Origin: Saccharopolyspora phatthalungensis
GTDB taxonomy: Bacteria > Actinomycetota > Actinomycetes > Mycobacteriales > Pseudonocardiaceae
Assembly (NCBI RefSeq): GCF_014203395.1
Contig: NZ_JACHIW010000002.1
Location: 1,240,001-1,304,000 of the forward strand
Direction: 5' to 3'
Length of the DNA: 64,000 nt
A program made the translations under genes and the position numbers. Shown here piece by piece: positions 6,186-55,300 of the stretch. Every line of letters begins with the position of its first letter. Position 1 is the first letter of the stretch. The notes under the pieces were generated by a model. It did no database searches and had not been told where the DNA came from. It saw only the letters and a list, made by a program, of their open reading frames with translations.

Positions 6186-6950
6186 GTGCTGCCACGAACC
6201 GCCACGGGCTGGCTGCGGTGCCGGACTCCCCGCACGCGTCCACGCGCACGCCTGGTCTGCTTCCCGCACGCGGGCGGCTCGGCGAGCTTCTTCGGCAACT
6301 GGCCCGACCACCTGCCCGCCGATGTCGAGGCGCATGCGGTGCAGTACCCCGGCCGCGAGGACCGGATCGCCGAAGAACCGCCCGCCGGCCTGGACGCGCT
6401 GGCCGGATGTGTCGCACGGGAACTGGCAGCCCTGCTCGACCGCCCCATCGCCCTGTTCGGGCACAGCATGGGCGCGGTCGCCGCATACGAAGTGGCCCGG
6501 ATTCTGGAGCAGCACCACGGCGTGACCCCGTTGCGGCTGTTCGTGTCCGGCAGACACGTGCCGGGCGAGCACCGAGGCGACGAAATACACCGGCGTGACG
6601 ACGCCGGACTGGTGGCGGAACTGGTCCGCGTCGGCGGCGCCGGGGCGGACGTCCTGGCCGCCAGCCCCGAGCTGTGGCCGGTTTTCCTGCCCGCGATCCG
6701 CGACGACTACCGGCTTGAGGAGACCTACCGGCACCGGCCGGGCGCCCCGCTGCGCGCGCCGGTCACTGCCCTCGTCGGCGAAGACGACCAAGAGGTCACG
6801 CCGGACGAGGCGGGCCGGTGGAGCCACTACACGTCGGGACCATTCGCCCTGCACGTCATGCCGGGCGATCACTTCTTCCCCGCGCAGCACACGACGGCAC
6901 TGCTCGATCTGATGCTGCGCGAACTCGATGCCCAGGAGGCCCCCCGGTGA
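6186..6950 (+). CDS. type II thioesterase (proofreading, NRPS-associated)
   Basis: This 254-aa alpha/beta hydrolase of the TEII/GrsT family should remove wrongly loaded groups from carrier proteins of the NRPSs. The nucleophile elbow is GHSMG, preceded by the family's CFPHAGGSASFF near residue 30 and VQYPGREDR near residue 55. The catalytic His is in GDHFFP near the C-terminus. The GTG start has AGGAAGGA about eleven bases upstream. It is the first gene of the iron-box operon and overlaps NRPS1 by four bases (GTGA). The first 15 or so residues align less clearly with the family, so a later start is possible. Confidence 0.92.
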   Translation: MLPRTATGWLRCRTPRTRPRARLVCFPHAGGSASFFGNWPDHLPADVEAHAVQYPGREDRIAEEPPAGLDALAGCVARELAALLDRPIALFGHSMGAVAAYEVARILEQHHGVTPLRLFVSGRHVPGEHRGDEIHRRDDAGLVAELVRVGGAGADVLAASPELWPVFLPAIRDDYRLEETYRHRPGAPLRAPVTALVGEDDQEVTPDEAGRWSHYTSGPFALHVMPGDHFFPAQHTTALLDLMLRELDAQEAPR

Positions 6951-18132: not shown

Positions 18133-18843
18133 ATGTTGAGATGCAGTCATGTCCTGAGCCGAGTCGAGGATATCCACAAAATTGTGCGCGACTTCACCGA
18201 ACTCGGTTTCTCGGTGACCTGGGGAAGCGCCCCGGAGAAGGCGCGCAATGCCCTGATTTGGTTTGCCGAGGGACCATTTCTTGAGTTTTTTGAATTTCCC
18301 ACGGCGCTGCGTCCGCTGCGCTGGCCGGTCGCGGCGCGCTTCGGCCTGGGCATGGGCGACCGGCTCGCGAAGTGGGCCGCGCCCGGCTCCGGCTGGCGTG
18401 ATCTCGCCCTGGAGACCGACGACACCGATCTCACCGCGACCCGGGACCGCCTCGCCGCCACCGGACTGCCCATGTCGCGGATCTTCCGCAACACCCGCAC
18501 CCGGCCGGACGGCGAGCGCGTCCGCTACCAGATGAGCGCGCCGCGGCCCGCCGCGCTGCCGTTCGTCGTGTCGTCCTACGACCCACCGCAACGCCCGCGA
18601 CGGACCGAGCATCCCAACGGCGCCACCGGGATCTCGGCCGTCCACTATGGAATACGACCGCAGCATCGCGCCCACTACGACCGGCTGATCGGCCCCGATC
18701 CGTGGCTGCGCCCGCGTGCCTCGCCCGTCACCGGCGTGCTCACCGTGGAGCTCGATGGTCTGGCCGGTCCGCTCGACCCCGAGCTGACCAACGGCGTCGC
18801 GCTCGTCCCCACCCGTCCGACCATCGAGGAGCCCCAGCCGTGA
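18133..18843 (+). CDS. VOC-superfamily (glyoxalase-like) protein in the siderophore operon
   Basis: This 236-aa protein begins MLRCSHVLSRVEDIHKIV and continues with LGFSVTWGS and FLEFFEFP, the pattern of a Glyoxalase_3-type VOC domain. These bind a small ligand or a metal between paired beta-alpha-beta-beta-beta units. It is the first gene of the third siderophore operon and its stop overlaps the NRPS2 start (GTGA), so expression is coupled. The role is unknown. Resistance-like sequestration, isomerisation, or a helper role in ring formation are all possible. I did not find the full set of metal ligands by eye. Confidence 0.75.
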   Translation: MLRCSHVLSRVEDIHKIVRDFTELGFSVTWGSAPEKARNALIWFAEGPFLEFFEFPTALRPLRWPVAARFGLGMGDRLAKWAAPGSGWRDLALETDDTDLTATRDRLAATGLPMSRIFRNTRTRPDGERVRYQMSAPRPAALPFVVSSYDPPQRPRRTEHPNGATGISAVHYGIRPQHRAHYDRLIGPDPWLRPRASPVTGVLTVELDGLAGPLDPELTNGVALVPTRPTIEEPQP

Positions 18844-27866: not shown

Positions 27867-33371
<5,505 letters not shown>

Positions 33372-33400
33372 CGGCTGAGCCTCCCAAGTACGCACGCGCA

Positions 33401-33760: not shown

Positions 33761-33936
33761 CCGCCAATAGTGTGGCGCAACTGGCTCATCTGTCGCACTC
33801 GTTGCTACCGCCGAGCCTTATGGGCCGGATGAGCCAGTTTGACCCGCGGACTCCGCCTGCCCGACCTGCGGGCACTGACCCGGGGCGTCCTTAGCATCTT
33901 CTACCTCACAGATCAACCCGGCTGTACCGTGGCCCC

Positions 33937-35115
33937 ATGAGTAACCATCTGTCACTAGGTGAGCGCATACGGCAACTACGAGGCGACCTCTACACCCAAC
34001 AGCAACTGGCAGACCGAGCGGGGCTATCGCTCACGTTGATCCGAAAACTAGAACAGGGGGTGCGGCAGACATGCAGCGTCGCGAGCCTGCACAAGATCGC
34101 TCGGGCCCTGGATGTCACGCTCGCCGATCTACTGGTCCCAGTCTCGATACCAGAGCACGACCAGGACCAAGGGGTTACGGCGCTACGGCACGCCGTGAGC
34201 TTGGTAGGCGTCCCGAAGGACGCCCCTGCGACTACGCAGGAGGCGCGTTTTGCCGAAATCGCCGCGTGGCGCACGTACTGGAGTGGGCAACACGACTCCG
34301 CCGTTTGGGCGTTGTCTCGTCAGATCAGACAACTAGAGTCCGGGCTAGCCACGTCAAACGACACAGATCGGCCGATTTATCTCCAGTCACTATCCCGGGT
34401 GTTGTGGGCTGCCGGGTGTACCTTGACACTGCTGCGGCACCCGGACGCCGCGCACCTGGCCATACAGAGATCAATACGCCTATCTGAAGGACTAAGCGAC
34501 CCCGTGATGACAGCTTCCGCGACGGGATCTCTAGCTTGGCAACTAATGGTTGCCGGCAGGTACGAGGAATCGTGGGAGTTGTCCACCTCAACTGCAAGGA
34601 CGATTGAACCGGGCAGAACCCACAATATCCCTCAAATGAAAGTGTACGGGTCTCTGTTGCTGCAGGCTGGTAACGCGCACGCCCGCGCAGGCAACGCCGT
34701 GGCGGCGAAGCATTTCTTGGGTGAAGCTCGGCAAATTGCCGCAAAGGTCCCCGACGGACAGTGCTACCACAGCAGCATCTTTGGCCCGTCCTCAATCGCT
34801 ATGCAGCATACAGATATTGCGATCAATCTCGGCGAATTCGGCGACGCGTTGGCCGCGTCTAAGACCATGCCGGGGGGCGGCTCAGCCCTACACCTCTTGG
34901 GTAAATGCAGGCACGATACGGATCGCGCCTTGGTCCATCTCAAGACCGGGGATACAGACAAGGCGGTGGCGCTGTTGTCGTCGACTGCTTCTGCCGCCCC
35001 CTTTTGGTTTCAGAATCAGCGCTTGTCAAAATCTATTGTCAAAGATCTGCTCCACACACCTGCGTCTAAGTCCCCGCAATTGCGGGGACTCGCTACGAAG
35101 CTGGGAGTGTGCTAA
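33937..35115 (+). CDS. XRE-family transcription regulator with TPR-like C-terminal half
   Basis: This 392-aa protein has an N-terminal HTH_3 domain (residues 6-65: LGERIRQLRGDLYTQQQLADRAGLS, IRKLEQGVR) and a helical C-terminus with repeated Ala-rich helix pairs typical of TPR regulators, for example LQAGNAHARAGNAVAAKHFLGEA and ALVHLKTGDTDKAVALL. TPR domains in such regulators often bind small peptides. It is directly followed by two perfect palindromes and a string of tiny ORFs, which it may control. Codon use is less GC-biased than in the neighbouring biosynthetic genes, and so is the whole 34-37 kb stretch, which suggests separate origin. Confidence 0.85.
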   Translation: MSNHLSLGERIRQLRGDLYTQQQLADRAGLSLTLIRKLEQGVRQTCSVASLHKIARALDVTLADLLVPVSIPEHDQDQGVTALRHAVSLVGVPKDAPATTQEARFAEIAAWRTYWSGQHDSAVWALSRQIRQLESGLATSNDTDRPIYLQSLSRVLWAAGCTLTLLRHPDAAHLAIQRSIRLSEGLSDPVMTASATGSLAWQLMVAGRYEESWELSTSTARTIEPGRTHNIPQMKVYGSLLLQAGNAHARAGNAVAAKHFLGEARQIAAKVPDGQCYHSSIFGPSSIAMQHTDIAINLGEFGDALAASKTMPGGGSALHLLGKCRHDTDRALVHLKTGDTDKAVALLSSTASAAPFWFQNQRLSKSIVKDLLHTPASKSPQLRGLATKLGVC

Positions 35116-35146
35116 CCCGATCGGGTAGTGACACGCTGCGTGTCAC
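35115..35146. promoter_or_regulatory. two adjacent perfect palindromes after the XRE gene
   Basis: ACCCGATCGGGT (35115-35126) is a perfect 12-base palindrome. Two bases on, GTGACACG (35128-35135) and CGTGTCAC (35139-35146) form a 19-base palindrome with a three-base centre. They begin at the XRE stop codon and precede the small-ORF set. They are candidates for the regulator's operator, or a terminator of its gene. Confidence 0.55.
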
Positions 35147-35260
35147 CAGCATTCCTCCGGCACCGACAAGATCCCTCCTGGATGGCCTCCGCCGGTCGTT
35201 AATCGATCCCCCGACAGCCGGACGGCGGGGGCGTCCTTCCAACGGATGGAGGGTGACCCA

Positions 35261-35323
35261 TTGAGAAAGCTTTCCAGCCCTGCCGGGATCGCAGACGCAG
35301 GAATCGAGCTCGACGAGAAATGA
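35261..35323 (+). CDS. possible 20-aa leader peptide
   Basis: A TTG start has a strong GGAGG eight bases upstream and opens a 20-residue frame (MRKLSSPAGIADAGIELDEK if initiated with Met). Its stop overlaps the next ATG (ATGA), and that 10-residue frame in turn overlaps the start at 35349, giving a chain of three overlapping frames. It could be a leader for translational coupling or a small peptide in its own right. It is too short for certainty. Confidence 0.35.
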   Translation: MRKLSSPAGIADAGIELDEK

Positions 35324-35352
35324 TCCGCAGGCGCGTGCGGGTATTCCTATGA
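35320..35352 (+). CDS. possible 10-aa linking ORF (MIRRRVRVFL)
   Basis: This very short basic frame overlaps the 20-aa frame before it and the 68-aa gene after it, each by ATGA. Such a chain would let one ribosome-binding site at 35248-35254 serve all three. No other evidence of coding. Confidence 0.2.
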   Translation: MIRRRVRVFL

Positions 35353-35555
35353 CGGGTGCCCCTGAGCCGGAGTCCATCGAAGGCCCCTCTGTCTCAACGG
35401 TCAGTCTTGATGTAGTTCTGCGTAAAGTCTCGTGGAAGCTTGACCAGGTGGCGTTCAAGCTGCCTCGTCGCGACGTATCTACCTCCGACTTGGATCAGCT
35501 CGCGGACACCCTCACGGAGCTAGTGGAACTCCTTCGAAAAGCGGACCTTTGTTGA
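35349..35555 (+). CDS. small hypothetical protein, 68 aa
   Basis: This acidic N-terminal, helical C-terminal protein (VVLRKVSWKLDQVAFKLP, then LDQLADTLTELVELLRK) has no recognised domain. It has no ribosome site of its own but overlaps the preceding mini-ORF by ATGA, consistent with coupled translation. It ends in LC. The leucine-rich tail could form a helical hairpin or dimer. It belongs to the small-ORF set behind the XRE regulator. Confidence 0.5.
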   Translation: MTGAPEPESIEGPSVSTVSLDVVLRKVSWKLDQVAFKLPRRDVSTSDLDQLADTLTELVELLRKADLC

Positions 35556-35651
35556 CTGGGTTTAGGCGACTGCTTCTGCGCCTTACGGTAGCCCTGATAA
35601 TTCTCTTGCCGGTTGCATCGGCACCGATCGAGGAAAGGAGGACTTACGCCG

Positions 35652-35735
35652 ATGTACGCACAGACGTGGGCTCAAGTGTTGATTATCGGACTGCCCCTTT
35701 TGTCTATCCTCTGGCCTACCAAGAGAGACCGATGA
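35652..35735 (+). CDS. possible 27-aa membrane peptide
   Basis: The ATG lies ten bases after AGGAAAGGAGG, one of the strongest Shine-Dalgarno sequences in this region. The product begins MYAQTWAQVLIIGLPLLSILWP and ends KRDR, so it is one hydrophobic segment with a basic tail. It could be a small membrane peptide or holin-like toxin peptide. A longer overlapping frame at 35549-35761 has no ribosome site. Confidence 0.4.
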   Translation: MYAQTWAQVLIIGLPLLSILWPTKRDR

Positions 35736-35862
35736 TGCCGATCCCTGAATTCGCCAACTGAATGGCTGGTAAGAACGAGGCGAAGTGGCATCAGACGGCC
35801 GGATGATCTGTCGCGGCTGTCTCGCCACGACAATAAGCATCCAGCAATCCCGAGACTCGAAA

Positions 35863-35893
35863 GGTCCCCGGTAGCAGCTACCTACCGGGGACC
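35863..35893. terminator. strong hairpin, likely terminator of the first small-ORF group
   Basis: GGTCCCCGGTAG (35863-35874) pairs perfectly with CTACCGGGGACC (35882-35893) around a seven-base loop. No U-run follows, as is common in actinomycetes. Confidence 0.7.
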
Positions 35894-35942
35894 ACCAAAG
35901 AGCCTACCGCACACGCCGCGTAACGATGAATGGAGGCCCCAG

Positions 35943-36122
35943 TTGCCTAGACGAACGTTCGCGCCTGATTGCTCCGTACTGTGGAAATGCGCAGCCGACC
36001 AGTGTCTTTTTGCCGACGAAGACCCTGATGTCGTAGGGCAGCACGAACACGGTTCCCACGGCCCCTCATGGATGGCGGAAGGACCCACCACAATCATTGT
36101 GGCTAACAGCCAGACCAAGTGA
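35943..36122 (+). CDS. small Cys/His-containing hypothetical protein, 59 aa
   Basis: A TTG start has TGGAGG six bases upstream. The product begins MPRRTFAPDC and has three Cys (DCSVLWKCAADQC) followed by a His-rich HEHGSHG segment, a pattern that could bind zinc. No family is recognised. It follows the terminator hairpin, so it may have its own promoter. I prefer this frame to the overlapping 36097-36447 frame, which has no ribosome site and a low-complexity product. Confidence 0.5.
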   Translation: MPRRTFAPDCSVLWKCAADQCLFADEDPDVVGQHEHGSHGPSWMAEGPTTIIVANSQTK

Positions 36123-36278
36123 AGGCCCTACGCCGGATCCCCCGTCCGTCCAGCGAGTGCCACCACCAAATACGCCCTTGCAGCACGCGAGGAGAGCGCT
36201 ACCAAGCGTAAACGTAGGACCGCCTCTCCTTTTCCCAGATGAGGGGGTCCCCTTATACCCGATCAAGGAGACGAGATT

Positions 36279-36942: not shown

Positions 36943-37674
36943 ATCTTTGCATCCGATTAGAATGCCTCGGTCAGCGCCAGTGCTCCGGTCTACCGCTGCC
37001 GCTCGGACAGGACTAATATACACGGCCCAGAGACACAAAACCTTGCAAGTGTCTCCTCACGCAGGGCAGGTTGCCGGAGGCCAAAAGGGAGCTACGAACG
37101 GCTACCGGGCGCAAGACTCCCGCTACCTGCCGCTTCTGCCACGACGTCATCCGCGACGAGCGACGCGTCGCGGCGGCGGCGCACATCACTGGACAACCTC
37201 GTGCATCGACGGTGCCCGCGGGGCTTGGCGGAAGCTGCGCGTAAAACGGCCTACCCAACAGACACCCGCCATTCGGCCTACCAATTAGGCCATTTTACGA
37301 TCAATTACACTATTGACAAACGTCCACGGCTTTCGACTCGGGGATTCCCGTACTCGGTCCGCTCGCCGAACCTTCCCGGACCGCCGCGCAACATATCGGC
37401 GGCAGCCGAGTCGTCAATGATCTGGCTCCTTCGCGTACTCGAATCTTCCCTTTCAGGACCTCTCCCCAGGATGCTATGGACACCGGCGCCCAATGCGACC
37501 GATACTTGCATCCAACATTCGCACAAGGACTAATGCTGGAATTGCGAAAAGTATCAGCAGACGCCGATGCGGGCTCGTGGCGCGGTTTTCGGCTACCGGT
37601 TGGCGGAGAACGTCGGTTTCGGGGTGTCTGCCTCGCGTGGCACGCGAGGAGAACCGCCGGGAGGGCCAGTGGGC
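36943..37674. other. intergenic region upstream of the PKS-aminotransferase gene
   Basis: This stretch of about 730 bases has no gene I can defend. A short frame around 37075-37240 includes TCRFCHD but has no good start. TTGACA at 37313-37318 could be a -35 element, but no clear -10 follows. The inverted repeat at 37240-37299 is listed separately. GGGAGGG at 37659-37665 is the ribosome site of the next gene. Confidence 0.45.
37240..37299. repeat. long inverted repeat with a tRNA-like look on the minus strand
   Basis: CGTAAAACGGCCTA (37240-37253) pairs with TAGGCCATTTTACG (37286-37299) with one mismatch. GGCCTA at 37275-37280 can pair with the same TAGGCC instead, so two hairpins compete. Read on the minus strand, the outer seven bases look like an acceptor stem and GCCT-AATTGGT-AGGC like a D arm. 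The whole is only 60 bases and lacks an anticodon and T arm, so it is not a functional tRNA. Confidence 0.5.
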
Positions 37675-40600
37675 ATGTGGACGCACCGCATCGCGATCAT
37701 CGGGATGTCGCTGAGATTCCCGGGAGCGGACACTCCGGAGCGCTTCTGGGCCGACATCGGCACCGGCGCCTCCCGGATCCACCACTTCACCCAAGAAGAG
37801 CTGGCCGCAGCGGGAATTCCCGAGAGCGAGCGCGGCGCGCCGGATTTCGTCGCCGCGAGCGGAATGGTGCCCGGCGTCGACCGGTTCGACGCCGACTTCT
37901 TCGGCATGAGCGCGCGCGAGGCGGCGATCACCGACCCGCAGCAACGGCTGTTCCTGGAGTGCTGCTACCACGCCCTGGAGGATGGCGGTTATCCGGTTAC
38001 GGACGACACCATGCGGGTCGGCGTGTACGCGAGCACCGGTTACCGGCTGCACTCGCTGCACAGCTACCTGGCCAACAACCTCGGTGTCGCCGGCTGGGAA
38101 CCGGGCTGGGCGGCCGCCAAGCAGGTCCAGATCGGCAACTACGGGGACTACGCGGCAACTCAGGCCGCCTACCGGCTGAATCTCACCGGGCCCGCGGTCA
38201 ACGTGGCCACGGCGTGTTCGAGTTCGCTGGTCGCCGTGCATCTGGCTTGCCAGGCACTGCTGCTCGGGGAGGCCGACCTGGCGCTCGCCGGCTCCTCGGC
38301 ACTGCACTTCCCCCAGGTGACCGGTCATCGCCACGTCAAGGGCTCGACGATGTCACCTCGCGGGTTGCTCAGCGCGTTCGACGCCGAAGCCGACGGCACG
38401 GTCGCGGGCAACGGGGTGGCGGCCGTGCTGCTGAAACGGCTCGACTCGGCACTGTCCGATGGCGACACCGTGCATGCGGTCATCCTGGGCTCCGGGGTGG
38501 CCAACGACGGGGCGGCCGACGACGGGACGGCCAAGACCGGGTTCGCCGCGCCGAGCGCGATCGGGCAACAAGACGCGGTGTTGCGGGCGATCGAGGCGGC
38601 CGGGGTGCCCGTGGCGACCATCGGCTACCTCGAAGCGCACGGCACGGGCACCCACAAGGGCGACCCGATCGAATTCGACGGCCTGACCAAGGCGTTCCGC
38701 CAGCACACCGACCAGGTTGGCTTCTGCGCGCTAGGCACCACGAAACCGAGAATCGGTCACTTGGACAGCTGCGCCGGCATGGCGGGGCTGATCAGCGCCG
38801 TGCTCGCACTGCGGCACGGCGTCATCCCGCCCCTGGTTAACTTCCGCAGGCCCAACCCGGCTCTCGACCTGTCGGCCAGCCCGTTCACCTTGTCGGCCGA
38901 GTCGCGCGAGTGGCCGGGCTCCGGGCCGCGCCGGGCGGGGGTGCACTCGGTGGGCATGGGTGGCACTAATGCGCACGTCATCCTGGAACAAGCCCCACCC
39001 AGCACATCCGCCCCGGCGCCGGCGCGAACCGTGCCGGGACTGCTCCCGCTGTCGGCACGCGATCCGGAAGCCCTGGCGGAGTACGCCTCGGCGGTGCGCG
39101 ACCATCTGCGAGCACACCCAGACACGAGGCTGGCCGACCTGGTCACCACCCTGGCCCTGGGGCGCCGCCGGTTCGCCCACCGCGTCGCGGTGCCCGGGCA
39201 CACGATCAAAGAACTGGTCAACGCACTCGACGGCTACCTCAGCGGCGCGACGGATCATCGGTGCAGCACCGGCGTGGTCACCGATTCCCCCGCTGTCGCC
39301 TTCGTCTTCGACGGCGAGCAGGCACCTCCGGAGCCGACGGACGAGGCCACGCTGGCCCAGTTGCACTGCTCCGGCGTCGACATCGACTGGGCTGCGCTAC
39401 TCGATGGCTGCGGTGGCCGGCGCATCCCGCTGCCGCTTTACCCGTTCCGGCGCACGAGGCACTGGGTGGGCCCGTCGTTGCCGGAACTCGCCGAACCCGG
39501 ACAGAACGGGGACACCAATATCACCGTGGAGGCGGTCATGTCGGATCAGGGGACGTTCGATCGCGTGCTGGAGCGGACGGCACGGCACCTCGGCCAGAGC
39601 CCCGACGAGATCGACCCCGAACGGTCCTTTGTGGACCTCGGAGCGGATTCGCTCCATCTTATCGGCGTGCAAGTGGAGCTGGAAGGCGAGTTCGGAGTCA
39701 AGATAGGCATGGAGGAAATGCTGGAGGTGGCGCGAACGCCGCGGCTGCTCGCGGAGCTGATCGCACAGCGCCGTGCCCCAGCGGAACCGCCGACCGAACC
39801 AGTACCACCAGCGCCAGCCGCCACGCCCACCTCCGCGCCCAGCCCCGAACCGCCTGCGGTGCATGGTCCGCGCGTCACCGTGGCCGCCGGCTCGGGCATG
39901 GCCGACACGGCGACCAGTCCGGGGCAGCACGCCCACATCGCGGATTTGACGCGCAGGTTCAACGAACGAACCCATACGTCGAAGGAAAACACCCAGCGCT
40001 ACCGTGGCGTGCTCGCCGACAGCCGAGCGGTCGTCGGTTTCCGCGCAGCGACCAAAGAAATGCGCTACCTCATCGACGGCCGGTCGGCCAAGGGCGCGCG
40101 GCTGGTGGACGTCGACGGCAACGACTACGTCGATATCACCATGGGTTTCGGTGCCCTGTTGTTCGGCCACGAACCGAAGTTCGTCACCGAGGCCGTGCGC
40201 GAACACCTGTCCGGCGGGCTGCGCTTCGGCCTGCGCGGCGCGGACGCCGGCGAAGCCGCCGCCCTGCTCGCGGAGCTGACCGGCGCGGAACGGGTCGCAT
40301 TCGCCTGCACGGGCACGGAAGCCAACTCGGCGGCTATCCGGCTCGCCCGCGCGGCGACCGGCCGCACCCGCATCGTGCTGTTCCGCGGCTCCTACCACGG
40401 TCACATCGACTCGGTGCTCGGCCGCGCCAGTGGCGGGGGCACCGTTGCGGTCTCGGCGGGCATCCCAGCCAGCGCCGTGGCCGAACTGATCATTCTGGAA
40501 TACGGCGACCCGCGCAGCCTTGAGGTCATCGAAGAACACGCCGACATGATCGCGGCCGTCCTCGTCGAACCCGTGCAGTGCCGCAACCCCTCGCTGCGTC

Positions 40601-42192
40601 CCACGGAGTTCGTGCGTAACCTGCGCGAACTGACCCGCAAGCGCGGCATTGTGCTGATCTTCGACGAAATGCTCACCGGCCTACGGCCCCACCCAGGTGG
40701 TGCCCAGCACCACTACGGCGTCACCGCCGACCTGGCCACCTACGGCAAGGCGCTGGGCAGCGGCTTCCCCGTCGGCGCCATCGCCGGCCGGGCCGACATC
40801 ATGGACTACGTCGACGGCGGTTTCTGGCGTTACGGCGATGACAGCGGGCCACAGCGCGAGACGGTTTTCTTCGGCGGCACCCACATGCAGCACCCCGTCT
40901 CGATGGCCGCGGCGCGGGCCGTGCTCACGCACCTGCGGCAGGAGGGCCCTGCCCTTCAAGCGTCGGTCAACGCCAGGACCGACCAGCTCGCCGAGGAGCT
41001 GAACCACTTCTTCGTGAACGAGGAGTTTCCGCTGCGGCTGGACAACTTCGGGTCGATGTTCCGCTTCAGTCACCGCGCGGACATGGAACTGCTCTACCAG
41101 CACCTGCTGCTGCGCGGTGTGCACGTGTGGGAGTGGCGCAGCTTCTATTTGTCCACCGCGCACACCGACACCGACGTCGAGCACGTGGCCGAAGCCGTGC
41201 GCGGTTCACTGCGGGAACTGCGCCAGGCTGGTTTCTTCCCGCCCAGCAGGCCGCGCCCCGTCGCGGTGCCCGCGCGGCGCGAGCGTCCGGCGCCGGACTT
41301 CAGCATCTATTTCTTCGGCGACTCGGCGGAAGCGGAATCGGCCGGGTCGCCGAAGAAATACGACCTGATCATGGACACCGCACGGTTCGCCGACGAGCAC
41401 GGTTTCCACGCACTGTGGCTGCCGGAGCGGCATTTCCACTCCTTCGGCGGCCTGTTTCCCAACCCAGCGGTGCTCGGGGCGGCGCTGGCCGGTCGGACCA
41501 GCCGGATCCGGCTCAACGCGGGCTCGGTCGTGCTGCCGCTGCACGACCCGATCCGGGTCGCCGAGGAGTGGTCGGTGGTGGACAACCTGTCCGGCGGGCG
41601 CGTCGGGCTCGGTTTCGGCACCGGCTGGCACGGCGAGGACTTCGCGCTGCATCCCGACCGGTTCGCCCGTCGCCGGGAAACCGCCTTCGAGCACCTGGCC
41701 GACCTGCGGCGCCTGTGGCGCGGCGATCCGCTGCGCCGCCGCTCGGGCTCCGGAGCCGAGATCGACGTGCGGGTGCATCCCCGCCCGATCCAGGGGCAGC
41801 CGCCGATGTGGCTTGCCACGACGGGGCGGGTGGGGTCCTATGAGCAGGCGGGCCGGCTCGACCTCGGCGTGCTCACGAATCTGATGAACCAGACGGTGGA
41901 GCAGTTGGCCCAGAACATCGACCACTACCGGCGCGCCCGGCGCGCCGCCGGGCTGGATCCCGATGCCGGCCGCGTCACCGTGCTGCTGCACACCTACCTC
42001 GGCGACGACCACGAGGCCGCTCGCGCCGAAGCGCTGGAGCCCATGGTCCGGTACCTGCGTTCCTCATTGCTGATGCGGTCCGCGGCCACAGATTCCGGTC
42101 GCAGTGCCGAGGTTTGGCCGCCGCGAGCCCCGAGGACCTGGACGCGCTGTTCCGGCACGCCTACCACCGCTACTGCGACCAGCGAGCCCTGA
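37675..42192 (+). CDS. PKS-aminotransferase-monooxygenase: KS-(AT scar)-ACP-AMT-MOX, 3' end frameshifted
   Basis: This 1505-aa protein should extend an acyl chain and convert it to an alpha-hydroxy-beta-amino thioester. KS (1-430) keeps Cys (TACSSS, about 181), His (EAHGTGT, about 322) and KPRIGH. The usual KS-AT linker follows to AVAFVFDGE (about 541), then jumps directly to the post-AT linker DWAALLDG and PLPLYPFRRTRHWV, so the AT is deleted in frame. ACP has GADSL near 660. The class III aminotransferase (about 770-1190) has the PLP Lys in TYGKALGSG. The luciferase-like monooxygenase (from about 1209, SIYFFGDS) loses its family sequence after LRSSLLM (about 1465) and ends in unrelated residues; its missing C-terminus is encoded in another frame from 42114. 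The ATG has GGGAGGG nine bases upstream; the frame is open to 37567. Confidence 0.88.
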   Translation: MWTHRIAIIGMSLRFPGADTPERFWADIGTGASRIHHFTQEELAAAGIPESERGAPDFVAASGMVPGVDRFDADFFGMSAREAAITDPQQRLFLECCYHALEDGGYPVTDDTMRVGVYASTGYRLHSLHSYLANNLGVAGWEPGWAAAKQVQIGNYGDYAATQAAYRLNLTGPAVNVATACSSSLVAVHLACQALLLGEADLALAGSSALHFPQVTGHRHVKGSTMSPRGLLSAFDAEADGTVAGNGVAAVLLKRLDSALSDGDTVHAVILGSGVANDGAADDGTAKTGFAAPSAIGQQDAVLRAIEAAGVPVATIGYLEAHGTGTHKGDPIEFDGLTKAFRQHTDQVGFCALGTTKPRIGHLDSCAGMAGLISAVLALRHGVIPPLVNFRRPNPALDLSASPFTLSAESREWPGSGPRRAGVHSVGMGGTNAHVILEQAPPSTSAPAPARTVPGLLPLSARDPEALAEYASAVRDHLRAHPDTRLADLVTTLALGRRRFAHRVAVPGHTIKELVNALDGYLSGATDHRCSTGVVTDSPAVAFVFDGEQAPPEPTDEATLAQLHCSGVDIDWAALLDGCGGRRIPLPLYPFRRTRHWVGPSLPELAEPGQNGDTNITVEAVMSDQGTFDRVLERTARHLGQSPDEIDPERSFVDLGADSLHLIGVQVELEGEFGVKIGMEEMLEVARTPRLLAELIAQRRAPAEPPTEPVPPAPAATPTSAPSPEPPAVHGPRVTVAAGSGMADTATSPGQHAHIADLTRRFNERTHTSKENTQRYRGVLADSRAVVGFRAATKEMRYLIDGRSAKGARLVDVDGNDYVDITMGFGALLFGHEPKFVTEAVREHLSGGLRFGLRGADAGEAAALLAELTGAERVAFACTGTEANSAAIRLARAATGRTRIVLFRGSYHGHIDSVLGRASGGGTVAVSAGIPASAVAELIILEYGDPRSLEVIEEHADMIAAVLVEPVQCRNPSLRPTEFVRNLRELTRKRGIVLIFDEMLTGLRPHPGGAQHHYGVTADLATYGKALGSGFPVGAIAGRADIMDYVDGGFWRYGDDSGPQRETVFFGGTHMQHPVSMAAARAVLTHLRQEGPALQASVNARTDQLAEELNHFFVNEEFPLRLDNFGSMFRFSHRADMELLYQHLLLRGVHVWEWRSFYLSTAHTDTDVEHVAEAVRGSLRELRQAGFFPPSRPRPVAVPARRERPAPDFSIYFFGDSAEAESAGSPKKYDLIMDTARFADEHGFHALWLPERHFHSFGGLFPNPAVLGAALAGRTSRIRLNAGSVVLPLHDPIRVAEEWSVVDNLSGGRVGLGFGTGWHGEDFALHPDRFARRRETAFEHLADLRRLWRGDPLRRRSGSGAEIDVRVHPRPIQGQPPMWLATTGRVGSYEQAGRLDLGVLTNLMNQTVEQLAQNIDHYRRARRAAGLDPDAGRVTVLLHTYLGDDHEAARAEALEPMVRYLRSSLLMRSAATDSGRSAEVWPPRAPRTWTRCSGTPTTATATSEP

Positions 42193-45100
42193 TCGGAACG
42201 CAGGAGAGTTGCGCGGGCCTGGTGGCGAAGCTGCATGCGGCCGGGGTCGACGAGATCGCCGCGCTCGTCGACTTCGGCTTGTCCGCCGAGCAGATCTCCG
42301 CCGGGCTGGTCCGGCTGGACCGGTTGCGACGCGCGTTCACCACTCCGGCCGAACGCAGCGGCCCGGCCACCACCGCTCAGCGCCGGATGTGGCTGGCCTG
42401 TCAGTTGACCGGGGCCAGTGCGTACAACGAGATCCAAGGCGTGCGGCTGCGCGGGCCACTGGACGAGGAGGCGGTGCGCGCCGCACTGCGCGGCCTCGTC
42501 GACCGGCACCCCGGGCTACGCGTGGTGTTCCGGCCGGACGGCCGGGACCAGGAACTGCGCCAGGTCGTGCTGGACAGGGTCGACGTGCCGGTGACGGTGA
42601 GCGAACACCACTGCCAGGACGCCGATACGGCCATCACGGCGGTTGTGCGAGAGGAAAGCCGCCGCGAGTACGACCTCGCGCAGGGGCCCTTGTTCACTCC
42701 GCGCCTGCTCCGGCTGGGCACGGACGACCACGCGCTCATCATCGGCATCCACCACCTCATCACCGATGGGCACTCCGCCGGTCTCATCGCCGCGGACTTT
42801 CCGGAGCTGTACCGGGCGGCAGTGGCCGGGGACGCGCCGCGTTTCGAAGCGCCGGGCGGCTCCCCGCTGGACGCCGACCGCCCCGTGCACGATCCCGCCG
42901 ACCTTGACTGGTGGCGCGCGCACCTGGGGACCGAGCCGCCGGTCCCCCAGCAGCCCACCGACCGGCCTCGTGCCGACGCTGCCGTGGGCATGGGCGCGTC
43001 GGTGACAGCCTGGTTCGACCCGAGACGGACCGCCGCGCTGCGTGAATGGAGCGGCACGCAAGGGGTGAGCGTGTTCGCGAGCCTGCTCACCGCGTGGCGG
43101 GAGGTATTAAGGCGATTCTCCGGCCAGGAGGAGTTCATTGTCGGCACCACGTTCGGGCGGCGCACGCCGCAGACCAAGAACACCGTGGGCTTCTTCTCGT
43201 CGCTGCTGCCGCTGCGCGGGGTGCTGCGCGACGACATGGAGACGGGGGCCGCCGTGCGGGCGGCCAGGGATGCGGTGCTGGAGGCCACCGAACACAGCGG
43301 GGTGGACCTGGACGCGCTGTTCACCGAGGTCAACCCCGCACCGGGCACGGCCAGGCCGCTGATGCCCGTCTCGATCGACCTGGACACCGAGGCCCTGCCG
43401 GGTATCACGCTGCCCGGTGTGAGTGCGGAGCCGCTCGGGGTGGGCACCGCCTCGGCGCCGCTGGAACTGTCGCTGATGGTCGTGCGCACCGGGTCCGGCT
43501 TGCGCCTGAGCATCCGGTACGACGCCGGCCTGTACGCCGAAGCCACGGCGCGGCGCTACCTCGATCACCTCCAGCTCGTCCTGGAGGCCATTTCCGACGG
43601 CCGGGCAGCGCGAATCGGCGACCTGCCGATGCTCACCGCCGAGGACGAGAAGCGGCTGCGGGCGATCAGCGTCGGACCGCAGCCGGTACCCCACCACACG
43701 ACGCTCACCGAGGTACGGCCGGGAGGCGATCGACCGCTGGTGGTCGACGCCGCGGGCCGACACAGCGGCGGAAAGCTGGCCGCTGCCGCGAACGGCGTCG
43801 CCGCGCGGCTGATCGAACAGGGCGCGGGACGCGGAGACGTAGTGGCGGTCGCCTTGCCCAGAGGGCACGAGTTCGTTGCGGCTGTCCTCGGCGCGGTCGC
43901 GGCCGGCGTGGCCTACCTGCCCCTGGATCTGAGCCAACCGGTGCCGCGACTGGCGGCGGTGCTCGCCGACGCCGGCCCGGTCGCGCTGATCTGCTCGCAC
44001 GACCTCGACCCGGCGCTGGCACCCGGCGTGCCCCGGCTCCACGTCGGCGGCGATAGTCCATTGAGGACTGTCACCGTGACCGGCGATGACCTGCTGTGCC
44101 TGCTCTACACGTCCGGGTCGACCGGGACGCCCAAGGGGGTGCTGATCGAGCACCGCAACGTGGCGGCCACGCTGGCGGTGTTCTTGGACCGGCTGGGTAT
44201 CACCGGGGACGACCGGCTGTCCTGGTACAGCGCGCCCGGTTTCGACGCTGGGCACATCGAACTGTGGCCCGCGCTCGCCACCGGCGCCGAGCTGCACGTG
44301 GTGCCCGACGAGGTGCGGCTTGACCCGCAGGCCCTGGTGGCGTGGCTGGTGCGGCAGCGGATCACCGTCGCTTTCCTGCCGACCGCCGTCGCCGAGGCGG
44401 TGCTCGACCAGCCGTGGCCCCGGGACGCGGCGCTGCGGGTGCTGTGCGTCGGCGGCGAGCGACTGAACTCACGGCCGCGCGAGGACATTGCCTTCACCGT
44501 GTTCAACATCTACGGCCCGACCGAGTGCTCGGTGTTCTGCTCATGGGGCGAGGTGTCGCCGCGAGGTGTCGGCAGCCCATCGCTGGGCCCTCCCAATCCC
44601 GCCCTGCGGCTTGAGGTGCGCGACGCGGCGGGGCGCGTGCTGCCACCGGGCGCGATCGGCGAGCTGCACGTCGGCGGCCCGCAGGTCGCACGCGGCTACC
44701 ACGGCGACCCGTCGCTGACCGCGCAGCGGTTCAGCACCGACGACAACGGCTGCCGCTGGTACCGGACCGGGGATCTGGTGCGGTGGCGCGCGGATGGCGA
44801 ATTGGACTTCGTCGGGCGCGCCGATGACCAGGTGCAGATCCGTGGTGTGCGCGTCGAGCCGGCCGAGGTCACCTGTGCGGTGCGCACGCTGCCCGGTGTG
44901 CTTGACGCGCGCGTGCTGGCGGAAACCGACGATGCGACCGGGCGGGATCTGCTCGCCTGCCACGTGCTCGCCGAACGGACAGCGGCGGACGGGCTCGGCG
45001 AGACCGAGCTTGCTCGGCGCTGGCGTGCGGGGCTGGCCGAATTGCTACCCAGGCCCATGGTTCCGGAGCGGTGGCTGGTGGTGGATCGGCTGCCGTTGAC

Positions 45101-45383
45101 ACAGAACGGGAAGTGGGCCCGCCAGGCCGGGCAGGCGAGTGACGACGATCGGATTGCCGCGGCTGTCCGGCAGGTGTGGGCGGAAGTCCTCGGTGTCGAC
45201 GGATTCGACGACTATGCGCGGTTTTTCGACCTAGGCGGGCATTCGCTGAACGCGTTGACCCTGCTGAACCGGGTACGGGAGCGGTTCGGCGCCGAGTATT
45301 CACTGAGCGAGTTCTTCGCCGACCCGACGGTGTGTGGCATGGCGTCGGTGCTGGCGGGGAATCGGATGCGGGGAGAGCTGTGA
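42114..45383 (+). CDS. NRPS: monooxygenase C-terminal remnant-C-A-PCP
   Basis: The 1089-residue frame starts with about 70 residues that are the C-terminus of a luciferase-like monooxygenase (LIGTQESCAGLV, GVDEIAALVDFGL). Then come C (HHLITDG near 213), A (YTSGSTGTPKG near 663; A10 in TQNGKWAR) and PCP (GGHSL near 1044). The pocket code reads DAIFCGIVF by hand, which I cannot assign. It overlaps the upstream gene by 79 bases in the -1 frame. The TTG at 42114 has no convincing ribosome site. It is most simply the rest of one KS-ACP-AMT-MOX-C-A-PCP protein separated by a one-base loss, a sequencing error or programmed slippage. If translated alone, the real start is unknown. Confidence 0.85.
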   Translation: MAAASPEDLDALFRHAYHRYCDQRALIGTQESCAGLVAKLHAAGVDEIAALVDFGLSAEQISAGLVRLDRLRRAFTTPAERSGPATTAQRRMWLACQLTGASAYNEIQGVRLRGPLDEEAVRAALRGLVDRHPGLRVVFRPDGRDQELRQVVLDRVDVPVTVSEHHCQDADTAITAVVREESRREYDLAQGPLFTPRLLRLGTDDHALIIGIHHLITDGHSAGLIAADFPELYRAAVAGDAPRFEAPGGSPLDADRPVHDPADLDWWRAHLGTEPPVPQQPTDRPRADAAVGMGASVTAWFDPRRTAALREWSGTQGVSVFASLLTAWREVLRRFSGQEEFIVGTTFGRRTPQTKNTVGFFSSLLPLRGVLRDDMETGAAVRAARDAVLEATEHSGVDLDALFTEVNPAPGTARPLMPVSIDLDTEALPGITLPGVSAEPLGVGTASAPLELSLMVVRTGSGLRLSIRYDAGLYAEATARRYLDHLQLVLEAISDGRAARIGDLPMLTAEDEKRLRAISVGPQPVPHHTTLTEVRPGGDRPLVVDAAGRHSGGKLAAAANGVAARLIEQGAGRGDVVAVALPRGHEFVAAVLGAVAAGVAYLPLDLSQPVPRLAAVLADAGPVALICSHDLDPALAPGVPRLHVGGDSPLRTVTVTGDDLLCLLYTSGSTGTPKGVLIEHRNVAATLAVFLDRLGITGDDRLSWYSAPGFDAGHIELWPALATGAELHVVPDEVRLDPQALVAWLVRQRITVAFLPTAVAEAVLDQPWPRDAALRVLCVGGERLNSRPREDIAFTVFNIYGPTECSVFCSWGEVSPRGVGSPSLGPPNPALRLEVRDAAGRVLPPGAIGELHVGGPQVARGYHGDPSLTAQRFSTDDNGCRWYRTGDLVRWRADGELDFVGRADDQVQIRGVRVEPAEVTCAVRTLPGVLDARVLAETDDATGRDLLACHVLAERTAADGLGETELARRWRAGLAELLPRPMVPERWLVVDRLPLTQNGKWARQAGQASDDDRIAAAVRQVWAEVLGVDGFDDYARFFDLGGHSLNALTLLNRVRERFGAEYSLSEFFADPTVCGMASVLAGNRMRGEL

Positions 45384-46855
45384 CGGGTGCCGGTGAGCTG
45401 GACGATCTTCTCGGCAGGTTGCGTGTGCTCGACGTGCGCTTGGCGGCCGCCGGTGACAAGTTGCGTTATGACGCTCCGCGCGGCGTGCTGTCCCCGGAAC
45501 TGCTGGCCGAGCTGAAGCGGCACAAACCGACGCTGCTCTCTCGCCTGGCCGGGGCCGTCGTCGACGAGGCACCCGTGTCCGCGCAACAGGAGGCCATGCT
45601 CACGACGGTCACGCACCTGCCGAGGCCAGCGGTCTTCAACGTGGGCACGAGGATTTGGCTGACCGGTCGGCTCGACACGCCCGCCCTCGGCAGGGCCATC
45701 ACCGAACTGGTCGCGCGGCACGTCGGACTGCGCTGCCGATTCGTCCGCGACGGTGCGGGGCGGTGGTCACAGCAGGCGCTGGCGCCCGTGCCGTTCACCC
45801 TGCCCGTCGACGACCTGCGCGACGGTCCCGCGGAGCGGGCCGAGGAGATCTGCCTCGAACTGGCCAACACCCCGTTCAACCTCGGCCGGGGAACTATGCC
45901 CGTGTGCCGTTTGCTCCGGGTCGGCACCCGGCGGTGGGCGTTGATGCTCGTCACTCACCACATCAGCACCGACGGGTGGTCCCTGTCATTGACGTTGCGG
46001 GAATTGGCGGCGTTGTACGGGGCAGCCGTCACCGGGACGGCACCGCAACTGGAGGCGCCCGGCGCGCAGTCCACCGACTACGCGCGCTGGCAACGCGAGC
46101 AAGCCGATGCGGGCCTGGACGCTCGTCAGCTTGAGTTCTGGCGCCAGCATCTGGAGGGCGTGCTCCTTGCCGCCGACCTGCCCACTGACCGGCCACGACC
46201 TAGCCGGGCGTCCGGTGCCGGGGACACCGTGCGGCTGGAAGTTCCCCACCCGACACGGGCCGCCGTCGAGTCGTTCGCCCAATCCCTTGGTGTGACCCCG
46301 TTCGCCGTCACCGCTGCCGCCCTCGGCCGGTTGTTGGCCAGATTGTCCGGCGCCCCGGATGTCGTGCTTCGGATGTCCTACGCCAACCGCGAGCGCCGTG
46401 AATTCGAGTCGTTGGTCAGCTGCACCAGGATCGGCGTCGGACTGGTTGTCCGGGCACCAATGCGGGTGCCCTTCACCACGCTTGTCAAGCAGACGTGCGC
46501 CGCGTCTCTTGCGGCGCTTGACAACCCGGTGTCCATCGATCGCGTGGTGTACGAGCTGTGTGCGACTGGACGCGGTGCGGAGCCGGACCGGCCGCTCATC
46601 GGGTTCGCATTCCAGAACCTGCCCGGCCCAGAGGTGGCCTTCACCGGGCTTGCGACCCGAGTCGAGAACGTCGCCGCGGCCGCATCGCGTGCCGACTTGA
46701 CCTTCGGGCTCGTGTCGGCCGACGCCCCCGCACGGGGCTACCAGGCTTGGCTGGAGTACACCACCGACCTGTGGGAACCGGCGACCGCCACTAGGCTGCT
46801 GCGCGAATACGTCGACTCCCTGGCGGAACTGTGCGATCCGGCGCGAGTGGCGTAG
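45380..46855 (+). CDS. stand-alone condensation domain with TubC-type docking domain
   Basis: This 491-aa protein has a TubC-like N-terminal docking domain (LRYDAPRGVLSPELLAELK, residues 10-55) and one condensation domain (about 65-485) with an intact HHISTDG near 193. It has no A, PCP or TE. The GTG start overlaps the PCP gene stop (GTGA). The docking domain should bring it to the C-terminus of an upstream synthetase, most simply the PCP just before it. There it would join the bound chain to a soluble amine or alcohol and so release the product. That release role is inference. Confidence 0.88.
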   Translation: MTGAGELDDLLGRLRVLDVRLAAAGDKLRYDAPRGVLSPELLAELKRHKPTLLSRLAGAVVDEAPVSAQQEAMLTTVTHLPRPAVFNVGTRIWLTGRLDTPALGRAITELVARHVGLRCRFVRDGAGRWSQQALAPVPFTLPVDDLRDGPAERAEEICLELANTPFNLGRGTMPVCRLLRVGTRRWALMLVTHHISTDGWSLSLTLRELAALYGAAVTGTAPQLEAPGAQSTDYARWQREQADAGLDARQLEFWRQHLEGVLLAADLPTDRPRPSRASGAGDTVRLEVPHPTRAAVESFAQSLGVTPFAVTAAALGRLLARLSGAPDVVLRMSYANRERREFESLVSCTRIGVGLVVRAPMRVPFTTLVKQTCAASLAALDNPVSIDRVVYELCATGRGAEPDRPLIGFAFQNLPGPEVAFTGLATRVENVAAAASRADLTFGLVSADAPARGYQAWLEYTTDLWEPATATRLLREYVDSLAELCDPARVA

Positions 46856-52096: not shown

Positions 52097-52345
52097 CGCC
52101 CTTGGCCGATCAGGGCACGCCGGTCGCGCAAGAGCCGCCAATTTTAGGCGAAATTGGAAACCACCACCGCCGACCACCAGAAGAACAGACACGAGAGCCC
52201 TTTTTCTCTAATTCTTAATGGCTGAACGTGCATAGTTGTTGCACGCGCGAGGCGCGCGGTTTAGGGCGGGGACCTGGCTGGCACATACTACGGTGCGTTG
52301 ATCGTTTCGTCCTAGTACGAGTGTGAGCCGAGTGGGTGTTGTTGC

Positions 52346-55300
52346 GTGTCGCTGCTGGTGCCAGAGGAGGTGAGGCGGCTATTTCAGGTATTAACCGGTG
52401 AGGACATGACGGATGCGGACGAGGATGCGTTATTCGCGGTGGCGGCGGCGTTGGAGTCGGGTGCGGTGGCGGTAGGGGCATTGGGGCCGGCGGTGGGGGA
52501 TGTGGTGGGGCGGGTGCGGGGCGGGTTTTCGGGCAAGGCGGCGGACCGATTCGCCCAGCGGTTAGAGGCGTTTGGTCCGGTTTTGGAGTCGGGTGGTGTG
52601 GGTGTGCGGGAGTTGGCTGGGTTTGTGCGGAATCTGGCGTTGCAGGTGCAGTATTTGAAGTTCGTGACGGTGGGGGGTTTGCTGCTGCTGGTGGCCGAGA
52701 TCGCCTGGGCGGTGGCGATGGCGGGGCCTACTGGTGGGGCGAGTATGGCGTGGTTGGCGGCGCGGTTCGCGGTGATGCGGTTGCTGCTGACCCGGTGGTG
52801 GGGCCAGTTGTTCATGCGTTTGGCGATGAGCCAGGTGGTGGGGGTGGGGTTGCAGGTGGTGATGGATGCGGGGGCGCAAGGGTTGCAGTTCGCGTTGGGG
52901 ACGCGGAAGAAGTGGGATGCGGCGATGTCGGAGATGGCGGTGGGGGTCGGCTCGTTCAGCGGGCTGCTGGCGGTGCCGCTCTCGGCGCTGGGCAATGTGG
53001 TGGGCAACGCGATCGCCAAGGTGTTGGTGCGGGGTCTGGGCGACAAGATCGATGCTGAGGTGTTGGCGGCGGCGGCGCGGCAGGTGGCCGAGGAGCATGC
53101 GGAGCAGTACCCGGTGGCTTCGATGGCGAGATTCGCCGATGTCGTGGCCAAGAACCTAGAGGGTTACACCGGCATGTCGGTGCGGGCGATGTGGGTGGCC
53201 CGCTTCGGCCACGGCCTGGGCGAATCCCTGGAAGAGGGCCTGACCGAAATGCTCGGCGAGGCCGGCTATGGCGCGATCAGTGGTCAGGGGGCGCAGTGGA
53301 ATCCGTTCTCGTTCACCGCCGGGGTGTCGGAGGCGATCGGTTCGGGTATCGGGAATCTGGCGGGCCTGGCGATGCGCGGCCAGTTGATCCCGGCGGGCCG
53401 GGCCCGGGACAACGCCAACGGGACCGAGGCTTCCAACACCGACACCGACGCGTCAGAGGAATTGACGACCGATTCCGGGTCGCAGACGGGCAAGGGATCG
53501 CAGCCGGGCGAGAAACCCAGCTTTGTGGAGCCCCTTAACGACAAGCCCGGCTCCCCGAAGGACAAGTCCAATGTGGATTCCGGTGTGCCGGAACCCGAGC
53601 CGGGTGTTCCGGTCACCTCGACTGTCCTGCCCGCCGGTTCCGCCGGGATTGCCTCGCCTGGCGAACCGGGCCGCGTGGGTACGGGTGCCGTGGTGGGTGA
53701 CAGACCGGGCACCCCTCCGCCGCCCTACAGCCCGCCGCAAAGCGAGGACCATGCCCGCGTCCACGCACCGGAGTCCGGCGACGCGACCAGTGTGGGTGAC
53801 ACCCCTACCGGCACACCGCCACCGGGCTACAGTCAGGCCGCCGATGCTCTTCGCGCCAGCCCAGAATCCTCTGGCGTGGATAGTCCCGACGATTCGATGG
53901 GACATCCGGAGCTGTCTGCGCCGCCGGTTCGTGGGTCGGTGAACCAGGACGGCCCGTTGGTTCCCGATGCCCGGGTGACGGCCGGGGAAACCCGTGTCGA
54001 TGCGCCGCTTGACGACCACACCACGCCCGGACAGTCCTCTATGGACAATAGAGGTAATGGCCGGGGCGGCCCGCTGGGCTCCGATGGCGGGGTCACCACG
54101 GCAGGATCCCGCGTCAGCGCACCCCCGGTGCACGACCCAGTCGGTGCCACCCACGCGAACTCCGGCACATCTGACACGGGCAATCTGGGTGTGCCAGTTG
54201 AACACACGGTGTCTGTTGTGGACAGAATAAGCACTGCGGTGGACGATGCGCGCGCGGTCGAGCCCGCAACAGGCAAGCCCGGCTCCCCGGCGGACACGCC
54301 CGTGACAGACGCCACCCAGGCTCCCGGGGCGTCTTCCGGCGGCCCGGCGCCGGAAACGACGCCGCCTGCTGCGGCCGGGGAGGGCGCTGCCACCGAGGGC
54401 GGGGTGGCGGTGCCCGGCCAGGTGCCCGCGCGGGGCGATGGCACCGCTACCGGTGCGGCCGCGGGAACGGGGCCGGACGCGGGAAATACCGACGCCGCCC
54501 GCGGTGCTAAACCGCCATCCCCAGGCACGGTGTCCCCGGGCGCGGTGTCCCCGGGCGCGGTGTCCCCAGGCACGGTGTCCCCAGGCACGGTGTCCTCGGG
54601 TGGCCGGGTGCCGGGTGCGGGGCCGGTGGGATTGCCCGCCGATGCGGTGCGCGTGCCGGTGCCTGCGGAGGCGGTCTCCAGCGGCGGGGTTGCCGAGTTC
54701 CTACGCGCCCGGGTCGACGATGCCGGTACCGGACCGGTGGTGCTGGCCTCCGGAGACGATGCGGGCTCTGATGTAGTGGTCTCGCCGAATCAGGCCGCGG
54801 ACGTGGCGCGCAGCCTGGGACGTGACATCGTCGCGCTGGTACCGGGACGCGGCCGGCGTGGCCCCCGGTGGATGCGGTTCGACGCAGAAGGCGCACGCCC
54901 CCGCCCGCTAAGCCCGCCGGGACCGATCCTGGCACCGCAACAGACCAGTCCAGGACGCCAGGAACTCGGTGCCGCGACCGACTCCGCCACCACCGTCCCG
55001 ACCAGCCCGGCAGCGCAAGCGCGCCGCGCCAGCGACACCGAGCCCCACACCGCCTCCAGCCCGGCAAGAATGTCCGGACAGGACACCGCGTGGGCTCGCC
55101 AAACGCTAGCCGAGAGTGCCAGAACCCAGCCCACACCACGGGAACGGCAGCCGGAGGCGCGTCATGCCGGGCAGCCTTCCACCGGCACGTCACCCGCCGA
55201 GGGGGCAAGGGGCGTTTCTGCTGCTGTCGCGGTGAATTCGGCGGCGACAGACCATTGGCGTGATGTGACGGAGATCGGGCGCGGGACACGGCAGGGGGTG

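Follow-up and report, generated by a model that had tools for sequence, protein, structure and literature searches.

A probably inactivated copy of a conserved actinobacterial aminotransferase–monooxygenase assembly-line cassette in Saccharopolyspora phatthalungensis

We analysed a 64,000-nt stretch of the Saccharopolyspora phatthalungensis genome (contig NZ_JACHIW010000002.1; hereafter the window) that carries a hybrid polyketide synthase (PKS) and nonribosomal peptide synthetase (NRPS) operon at 37675-46855. On balance, comparison with related operons suggests that a cassette conserved among actinobacteria, with a proposed release route in its intact copies, has here been damaged recently. 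The cassette comprises a major facilitator superfamily (MFS) exporter; a synthetase with ketosynthase (KS), acyl carrier protein (ACP), aminotransferase (AMT), luciferase-like monooxygenase (LLM), condensation (C), adenylation (A) and peptidyl carrier protein (PCP) domains, from which the acyltransferase (AT) after the KS has been lost; and a docked terminal C protein. The window's copy is probably inactivated, with a broken LLM frame and an exporter that appears as a remnant. The combination of KS-ACP-AMT-LLM-C-A-PCP and terminal C is neither unique to the window nor specially microginin-like, and the window's line reads as a variant among AMT-LLM hybrid assembly lines, conserved as a small cassette.

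Pfam scans of the window's open reading frames (ORFs) returned the main domains at E values of 3e-12 to 6e-69, far past chance level. KS, ACP, a class III AMT and an LLM lie within 37675-42192, the frame of 42114-45383 encodes C, A and PCP, and a third protein (ORF 45377-46855) holds TubC_N and C. The preliminary description of this DNA, which was made from its letters, had proposed the domain order KS-ACP-AMT-LLM-C-A-PCP followed by TubC_N-C; Pfam bears this order out, spread over separate frames. The single joined 37675-46855 protein supposed there gives way to three reading frames, the first change falling at about 42.09-42.12 kb inside the monooxygenase. The described absence of a loading domain, AT or thioesterase (TE) holds for Pfam matches in the three window proteins, but the AT has left a stump and a post-AT linker. 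The motifs TACSSS/EAHGTG/GHLDSC (KS), DSL (ACP), TYGKALG (AMT), HHxxxDG (both C domains), the A core motifs and GGHSL (PCP) are kept, and we take those listed for KS, ACP, AMT, C, A and PCP to be catalytic. Missing catalytic residues in the AMT or LLM had been named as grounds for abandoning the proposal; none is missing from the aligned motifs, yet the monooxygenase is interrupted. The features of the operon are as follows.

37573..37724, plus strand: MFS exporter remnant, by comparison with the intact gene of relatives L009, L049, L050 and L051
37684..38844, plus strand: KS domain (PF00109/PF02801); protein start codon at 37675; C-H-H motifs at 38209, 38632 and 38755
39295..39465, plus strand: stump of the lost AT (39295-39321) and post-AT linker (39418-39465), by comparison with the decayed AT of P0012 and the full AT of the Streptomyces sister operon
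39562..39762, plus strand: ACP domain with DSL serine (PF00550, motif)
40063..41082, plus strand: class III aminotransferase of mycosubtilin-AMT type (PF00202, PDB 6kfm, motif); lysine motif TYGKALG at 40738-40758
41299..42087, plus strand: MupA/Atu3671-family FMN luciferase-like monooxygenase, model positions 1-260 of 341, frame 1 (TIGR04020)
42088..42122, plus strand: frame break within the monooxygenase, frame 1 to frame 3 (ORFs, TIGR04020, alignment)
42123..42330, plus strand: C-terminal part of the monooxygenase, frame 3, end approximate (alignment with eight relatives)
42363..43658, plus strand: condensation domain 1 (PF00668, motif); HHLITDG at 42750-42770
43725..45113, plus strand: adenylation domain, code DAIFCGIVF (PF00501/PF13193, alignment)
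45162..45344, plus strand: peptidyl carrier domain (PF00550)
45369..45380, plus strand: C-terminal RGEL tail, probable docking motif for TubC_N (co-occurrence with TubC_N)
45401..45541, plus strand: TubC_N docking domain, N-terminal in the terminal C protein (GTG start at 45380) (PF18563)
45563..46831, plus strand: terminal stand-alone C domain (PF00668, motif, relatives); HHISTDG at 45956-45976; gene end 46855

The possible GTG start of the terminal C gene at 45380 overlaps the stop of the preceding gene, and the Amycolatopsis terminal C gene likewise overlaps the stop of its synthetase gene.

The architecture recurs in other actinobacteria. A search with the AMT-LLM region returned 2280 proteins at E <= 0.001 among 7994 scored, of which the best 120 were listed; leaving aside the window's own entry, seven of the 119 listed matches combine all of KS, AMT, LLM, C and A, in Streptomyces sp. 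NPDC002589, Amycolatopsis pithecellobii, Kutzneria buriramensis, Kineosporia mesophila, Actinocrispum wychmicini and two more. The earlier impression that the combination was new thus fails in so far as it is not confined to the source genome, and survives in so far as the listed names are automatic annotations, not characterised clusters. Together with the window and a Crossiella protein, these seven carriers fall into a single clade of 9 within a set of 45 AMT-LLM rows, hand-picked from the loci and proteins collected (support 99/94; 98% of 200 bootstrap trees). The A code DAIFCGIVF, which alignment reproduced as first read, is shared by the window, Crossiella (L049) and P0008; the other codes in the clade are DLISCGIVF, DALFCGIIF, DALLCGVVF, DAVFCGIVF, DALMCGIVF and DGILVGVVF. 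All four relatives with fetched flanks (L009, L049, L050 and L051) have the order MFS, synthetase, terminal C, with the MFS gene directly upstream and overlapping the synthetase start, taken as the database start or the first start codon. The window has the fused domain order over two frames, with neither an intact single frame nor an overlapping MFS gene. Distribution is patchy: at E <= 1e-120 an AMT-LLM match occurs in 1 of 22 genomes of the genus, namely the window's, and family-wide in 20 of 390, the window's included, four of which are relatives with the same architecture (A. pithecellobii, Crossiella equi, K. buriramensis and A. wychmicini). Of the genera in the clade, Kutzneria and Crossiella belong to the Pseudonocardiaceae and Kineosporia to another order.

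A sister operon of Streptomyces type (G875; L066-L067) runs MFS, KS-AT-ACP, AMT-LLM-C-PCP and TubC_N-C, followed by TE and A-PCP genes. It resembles the window in gene order and docking tail, and its AMT-LLM is 72% identical; it differs in that its AT is full, its KS part forms a protein of its own, its main protein lacks an A domain, and A-PCP and TE are encoded by separate genes. Other arrangements were also seen. Two genomes of the family encode single proteins of 4560 and 4639 aa (L052:2955-16637 and L053:2525-16444) with A, ketoreductase (KR), KS-AT-ACP, AMT-LLM, C-A-PCP and a final C, and with A-KR at the start they are similar to the cyanobacterial Athmu units, for which loading of an alpha-keto acid is described in the available text of PMC13252402. 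Streptomyces hygroscopicus (L014:5025-17152) carries KS-AT-ACP and AMT-LLM-C-A-PCP-C as two adjoining proteins.

One fault of the window's copy lies in the monooxygenase. The frame 1 part of this domain scores 369 bits against TIGR04020 (cut-off 244) and covers only positions 1-260 of 341, whereas the model is covered from 1 to 341 in both relatives scanned (P0003 and P0012). Frame 3 encodes the remainder, which gives a clean alignment with eight relatives, in each of which it belongs to one single chain. The exporter is affected as well. Its clear remnant consists of the last ~30 codons (37635-37724; 70% identity), with a further weak piece in another frame at 37573-37626; the 5′ part (~360 codons) was not found in the window, and the source genome holds no close full-length copy, its sole other match reaching 28% identity. 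Adjoining the remnant, an HTH/TPR regulator region (33856-36199) recurs in the same genome at 74-83% identity, and G+C falls to 59-62% over 34-38 kb. The pathway in S. phatthalungensis is probably silent, or would at most give a product without the hydroxyl.

A further change, within the clade, concerns the AT. We compared the AT region of the window, P0003, P0004, P0012 and the G875 sister, leaving out P0005, P0007 and P0009. The G875 AT is full length with the motif GHSVGEY; that of Actinocrispum (P0012), which branches off first within the fused clade in the tree as drawn, is shortened and reads GHGAGEY at the motif, so that the nucleophile serine is gone; the window, P0003 and P0004 retain an AT stump or linker only. 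Among the matches listed, P0012 is the only one of 7 KS-bearing rows with an AT domain, and the KS-ACP gap of the Crossiella protein, ~140 residues, is too short for one. The AT has decayed within the fused clade. In having KS active-site motifs but no AT, the window's module is like a trans-AT PKS module; with its KS motifs intact, it has to receive malonyl in trans unless it is idle.

Family membership supports the 3-amino-2-hydroxyacyl chemistry class first suggested for this operon: the AMT has as its best solved relative the mycosubtilin AMT (PDB 6kfm, E 4e-111) and fits the MycA-type aminotransferases by sequence family and pyridoxal phosphate lysine motif, and the LLM exceeds the TIGR04020 cut-off (369 vs 244 bits), with 260 of the 341 model positions in frame. 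Aminotransferase-monooxygenase pairs for 3-amino-2-hydroxy units have also been described for cyanobacterial peptides, in the part of PMC13252402 available. By the likeliest route in an intact copy, the KS would take an acyl starter from a CoA or ACP pool, and malonyl would reach the ACP, its cis AT lost, through an AT acting in trans. The AMT would then convert the beta-keto product to the amine, the LLM would add a hydroxyl at its alpha carbon, and C1 would couple the 3-amino-2-hydroxyacyl unit to the amino acid selected by the A domain. TubC_N of the second protein would bind the [R/Q]GEL-like tail, the terminal C would hand the chain over to an amine or amino acid in free form, so that the product is released without a thioesterase, and the MFS protein would export it.

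The docking step is suggested by co-occurrence. Tail and TubC_N partner occur together in 9 of 9 pairs: [R/Q]GEL ends the synthetases of the window, A. pithecellobii, Crossiella, Kutzneria, P0014/P0129, P0061/P0131 and G875, with the variants RGTL in Streptacidiphilus (L010) and RGAV in Streptomyces (L012, its TubC_N taken from a tblastn match). The tail is missing in both pairs whose partner is without TubC_N (Actinocrispum and P0005/P0134). The partners in P0014/P0129, P0061/P0131 and P0005/P0134 were matched solely through contigs of equal length, and the count excludes P0003 (RGEL), P0008 (RGQV) and P0009 (no such tail), whose partners were not seen. The [R/Q]GEL-like tail is therefore a probable docking motif for TubC_N.

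The terminal C protein, which carries both a TubC_N-type docking domain and HHxxxDG, best matches similar-sized TubC_N-C proteins of Streptomyces fodineus, A. pithecellobii and K. buriramensis (55-60%), its 111 matches extending to ordinary NRPS C domains. In A. pithecellobii, S. rimosus and S. hygroscopicus it is closer to the terminal C domain (60%, 44% and 39%, respectively) than to internal C domains (28-29%). Release by a docked C onto a free nucleophile, as first envisaged, has a published precedent in Kj12C, a stand-alone C with a docking domain that, according to the text available, transfers the chain onto a free amine (PMC6195595); amine transfer would apply here by analogy. In Kutzneria the two genes after the terminal C encode SbnA and SbnB, above NCBIfam cut-offs, for diaminopropionate, which makes this amino acid a candidate acceptor there. 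Besides SbnA and SbnB, the stretch directly downstream of that terminal C gene (L050:3-5098) encodes an A-PCP protein and a product with only weak similarity to hydrolases.

A broader proposal, which we advance tentatively, is that minimal lines of three genes form an actinobacterial family whose products are peptides with an N-terminal 3-amino-2-hydroxyacyl unit. No thioesterase would be needed: a carrier with an [R/Q]GEL tail would deliver the chain to the docked terminal C, which would transfer it to a free amine, for example diaminopropionate. In one clade the cis AT would be caught at successive degrees of loss (the sister retains it in full, Actinocrispum without its nucleophile, and the others as a stump), as a cis-AT module turning AT-less.

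Several points weigh against a recently damaged copy with the proposed release route. Of 927 columns that do not vary among the other eight, the window departs at 26 (2.8%; others 1.2-8.3%), and none of six relative-rate tests involving the window is significant (chi-square 0.7-2.3). A sequencing or assembly error at the break is possible, if less likely. A separate A-PCP protein lies near the operon in Kutzneria and G875, the latter also with a thioesterase gene, so a carrier-bound acceptor or thioesterase release is possible. The sequence does not fix the starter, extender, amino acid or acceptor, and the literature search gave no product or biochemistry for any family member.

If the frame break were an assembly or sequencing error, the window would hold a working line lacking only its own exporter, an outcome that we regard as somewhat unlikely. 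It is favoured by the clean alignment of both window frames with relatives up to the break and by the protein itself, in which a comparison with eight family members made no relaxed constraint visible. Other observations point the other way: 42081-42125 contains no homopolymer run of more than 3 bases, the adjoining exporter is degraded too, and 18 other KS-bearing frames listed in the same genome run unbroken over a summed 64,699 codons, a rough guide only, as a broken gene would appear as a shorter frame. Internal stops occur in 2 of 71 listed genome matches (one KS-type, one LLM-type). The short base runs and the unbroken KS-bearing frames make a real mutation likelier than an error, and because an old pseudogene would show more change, the damage, if real, would be recent. 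We thus read the damage to the window's copy as recent or, less likely, as an assembly error.

The terminal C might instead hand the product to an aminoacyl-carrier protein supplied in trans, which we judge unlikely. The A-PCP proteins downstream in Kutzneria (L050) and the Streptomyces sister G875, with its thioesterase gene, would suit such a transfer, but no A-PCP was seen among ORFs within ~5 kb downstream in Amycolatopsis, Crossiella and Actinocrispum, nor among the window ORFs scanned past 46855.

Further oxidation of the 3-amino-2-hydroxy unit and closure to a pyrazinone, as proposed for the ichizinones, is very unlikely. Their PKS IchH is also an AT-less KS-ACP protein, and the cluster (ich) encodes an SRPBCC-type cyclase along with an FMN luciferase-like monooxygenase (PMC12144821, as far as available); in A. 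pithecellobii a gene for an SRPBCC-type Polyketide_cyc protein is located ~5 kb upstream, though amid gas-vesicle genes. Against this, the ichizinones are described there as placing the beta-amino acid second, with four NRPS modules, whereas the window has no module before the KS, and scans of the ORFs flanking the operon in the window, Crossiella, Kutzneria and Actinocrispum showed no such cyclase. It is highly improbable that the break creates two working subunits from which the monooxygenase reassembles: the open frames do overlap by 79 bases (the first ends at 42192 and the second opens at 42114), but the eight relatives compared have synthetases of one chain (2409-2633 residues) and the split falls inside a catalytic domain. 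It is scarcely credible that the line makes a lipopeptide of microginin type, for which a fatty acyl-AMP ligase (FAAL) would load a long fatty starter: beyond the common order KS-...-ACP-AMT-...-C-A-PCP, the ORFs scanned on either side of the operon, in the window and in four relatives, include neither a FAAL nor a loading carrier, and the comparator has a full AT and low identity.

Elsewhere in the window, 6186-27087 holds an NRPS cluster that we take to be of pyochelin/yersiniabactin-like siderophore type, with the following features.

6186-6950: TE of the siderophore cluster (Pfam)
6818-14356: protein with two C, two A and three PCP domains and a weak methyltransferase match
15354-16412: Irp3-like thiazolinyl imine reductase
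16417-18027, minus strand: methyltransferase
18702-23519: TubC_N-C-A-PCP-TE protein
23447-27087: two ABC transporter proteins

Beside it, on the minus strand, 913-5871 encodes an oligopeptide-type ABC importer (SBP_bac_5 protein, two permeases and an ATPase). A single-chain acetyl-CoA-carboxylase-like protein of 1842 aa (biotin carboxylase, biotin carrier, ACC central and carboxyltransferase) lies at 27867-33395, also on the minus strand. The region 52200-64000 shows little coding signal, nine ORFs scanned there giving no Pfam match, and the 64,000-nt window contains no tRNA gene.

Peptides with 3-amino-2-hydroxyacyl units include aminopeptidase inhibitors such as bestatin and amastatin. A literature search, mostly without subscription papers, found no publication on a bestatin- or amastatin-type gene cluster. 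The cassette is compact, and its intact copies in several genera would be an easy expression target; the source strain calls for caution as a doubtful producer, its assembly-line copy being probably dead. Graded AT loss offers a testable case of PKS modules coming to depend on trans acyltransferases, and the tail/TubC_N pairing may serve as a short exchangeable connector.

Among known systems, the mycosubtilin synthase MycA contributes the closest solved AMT to that of the window (PDB 6kfm); the mycosubtilin line presumably differs in having no monooxygenase and a long fatty acyl chain. The microginin-like comparator, a Planktothrix agardhii plasmid (NZ_LR882964) recognised by gene order, encodes FAAL, ACP and KS-AT-ACP-AMT-C-A-PCP. 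It shares with the window the order KS-ACP-AMT-C-A-PCP and beta-amination, and differs in FAAL loading, a full AT, further NRPS proteins and the absence of an LLM by Pfam. The preliminary description ascribed a monooxygenase to MicA itself. With identities of 39% (KS), 50% (AMT), 28% (C) and 30% (A), the special tie to microginin that had been drawn is not supported; microginin kinship as the closest relation was rejected against this FAAL-containing cyanobacterial cluster, and a second cyanobacterial protein (L087) is equally distant. The available part of a review assigns FAAL to micA and PKS to micD and compares microginins with amastatin (PMC12250027). Poststatin- and eurystatin-like alpha-keto routes were also considered, the accessible portion of the eurystatin paper giving no cluster (PMC9557299).

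Kj12C of the rhabdopeptide system resembles the window's terminal protein in that its N-terminal docking domain works with the C-terminal tail of the upstream synthetase; it comes from Xenorhabdus, where, as far as the available text goes, there is no PKS part, and amine release is described there and only suggested by analogy here (PMC6195595). The ichizinone cluster of Streptomyces sp. LV45-129, likened by description, not by sequence, shares an AT-less KS-ACP PKS, a beta-amino acid unit, an FMN luciferase-like monooxygenase and an MFS gene, and differs in its separate proteins, four NRPS modules, thioesterase and beta-amino acid in second position. For IchH, which consists of KS-ACP only, its authors propose a trans acyltransferase and free acyl-CoA starters, namely acetyl, propionyl and phenylacetyl (PMC12144821, in the text available).

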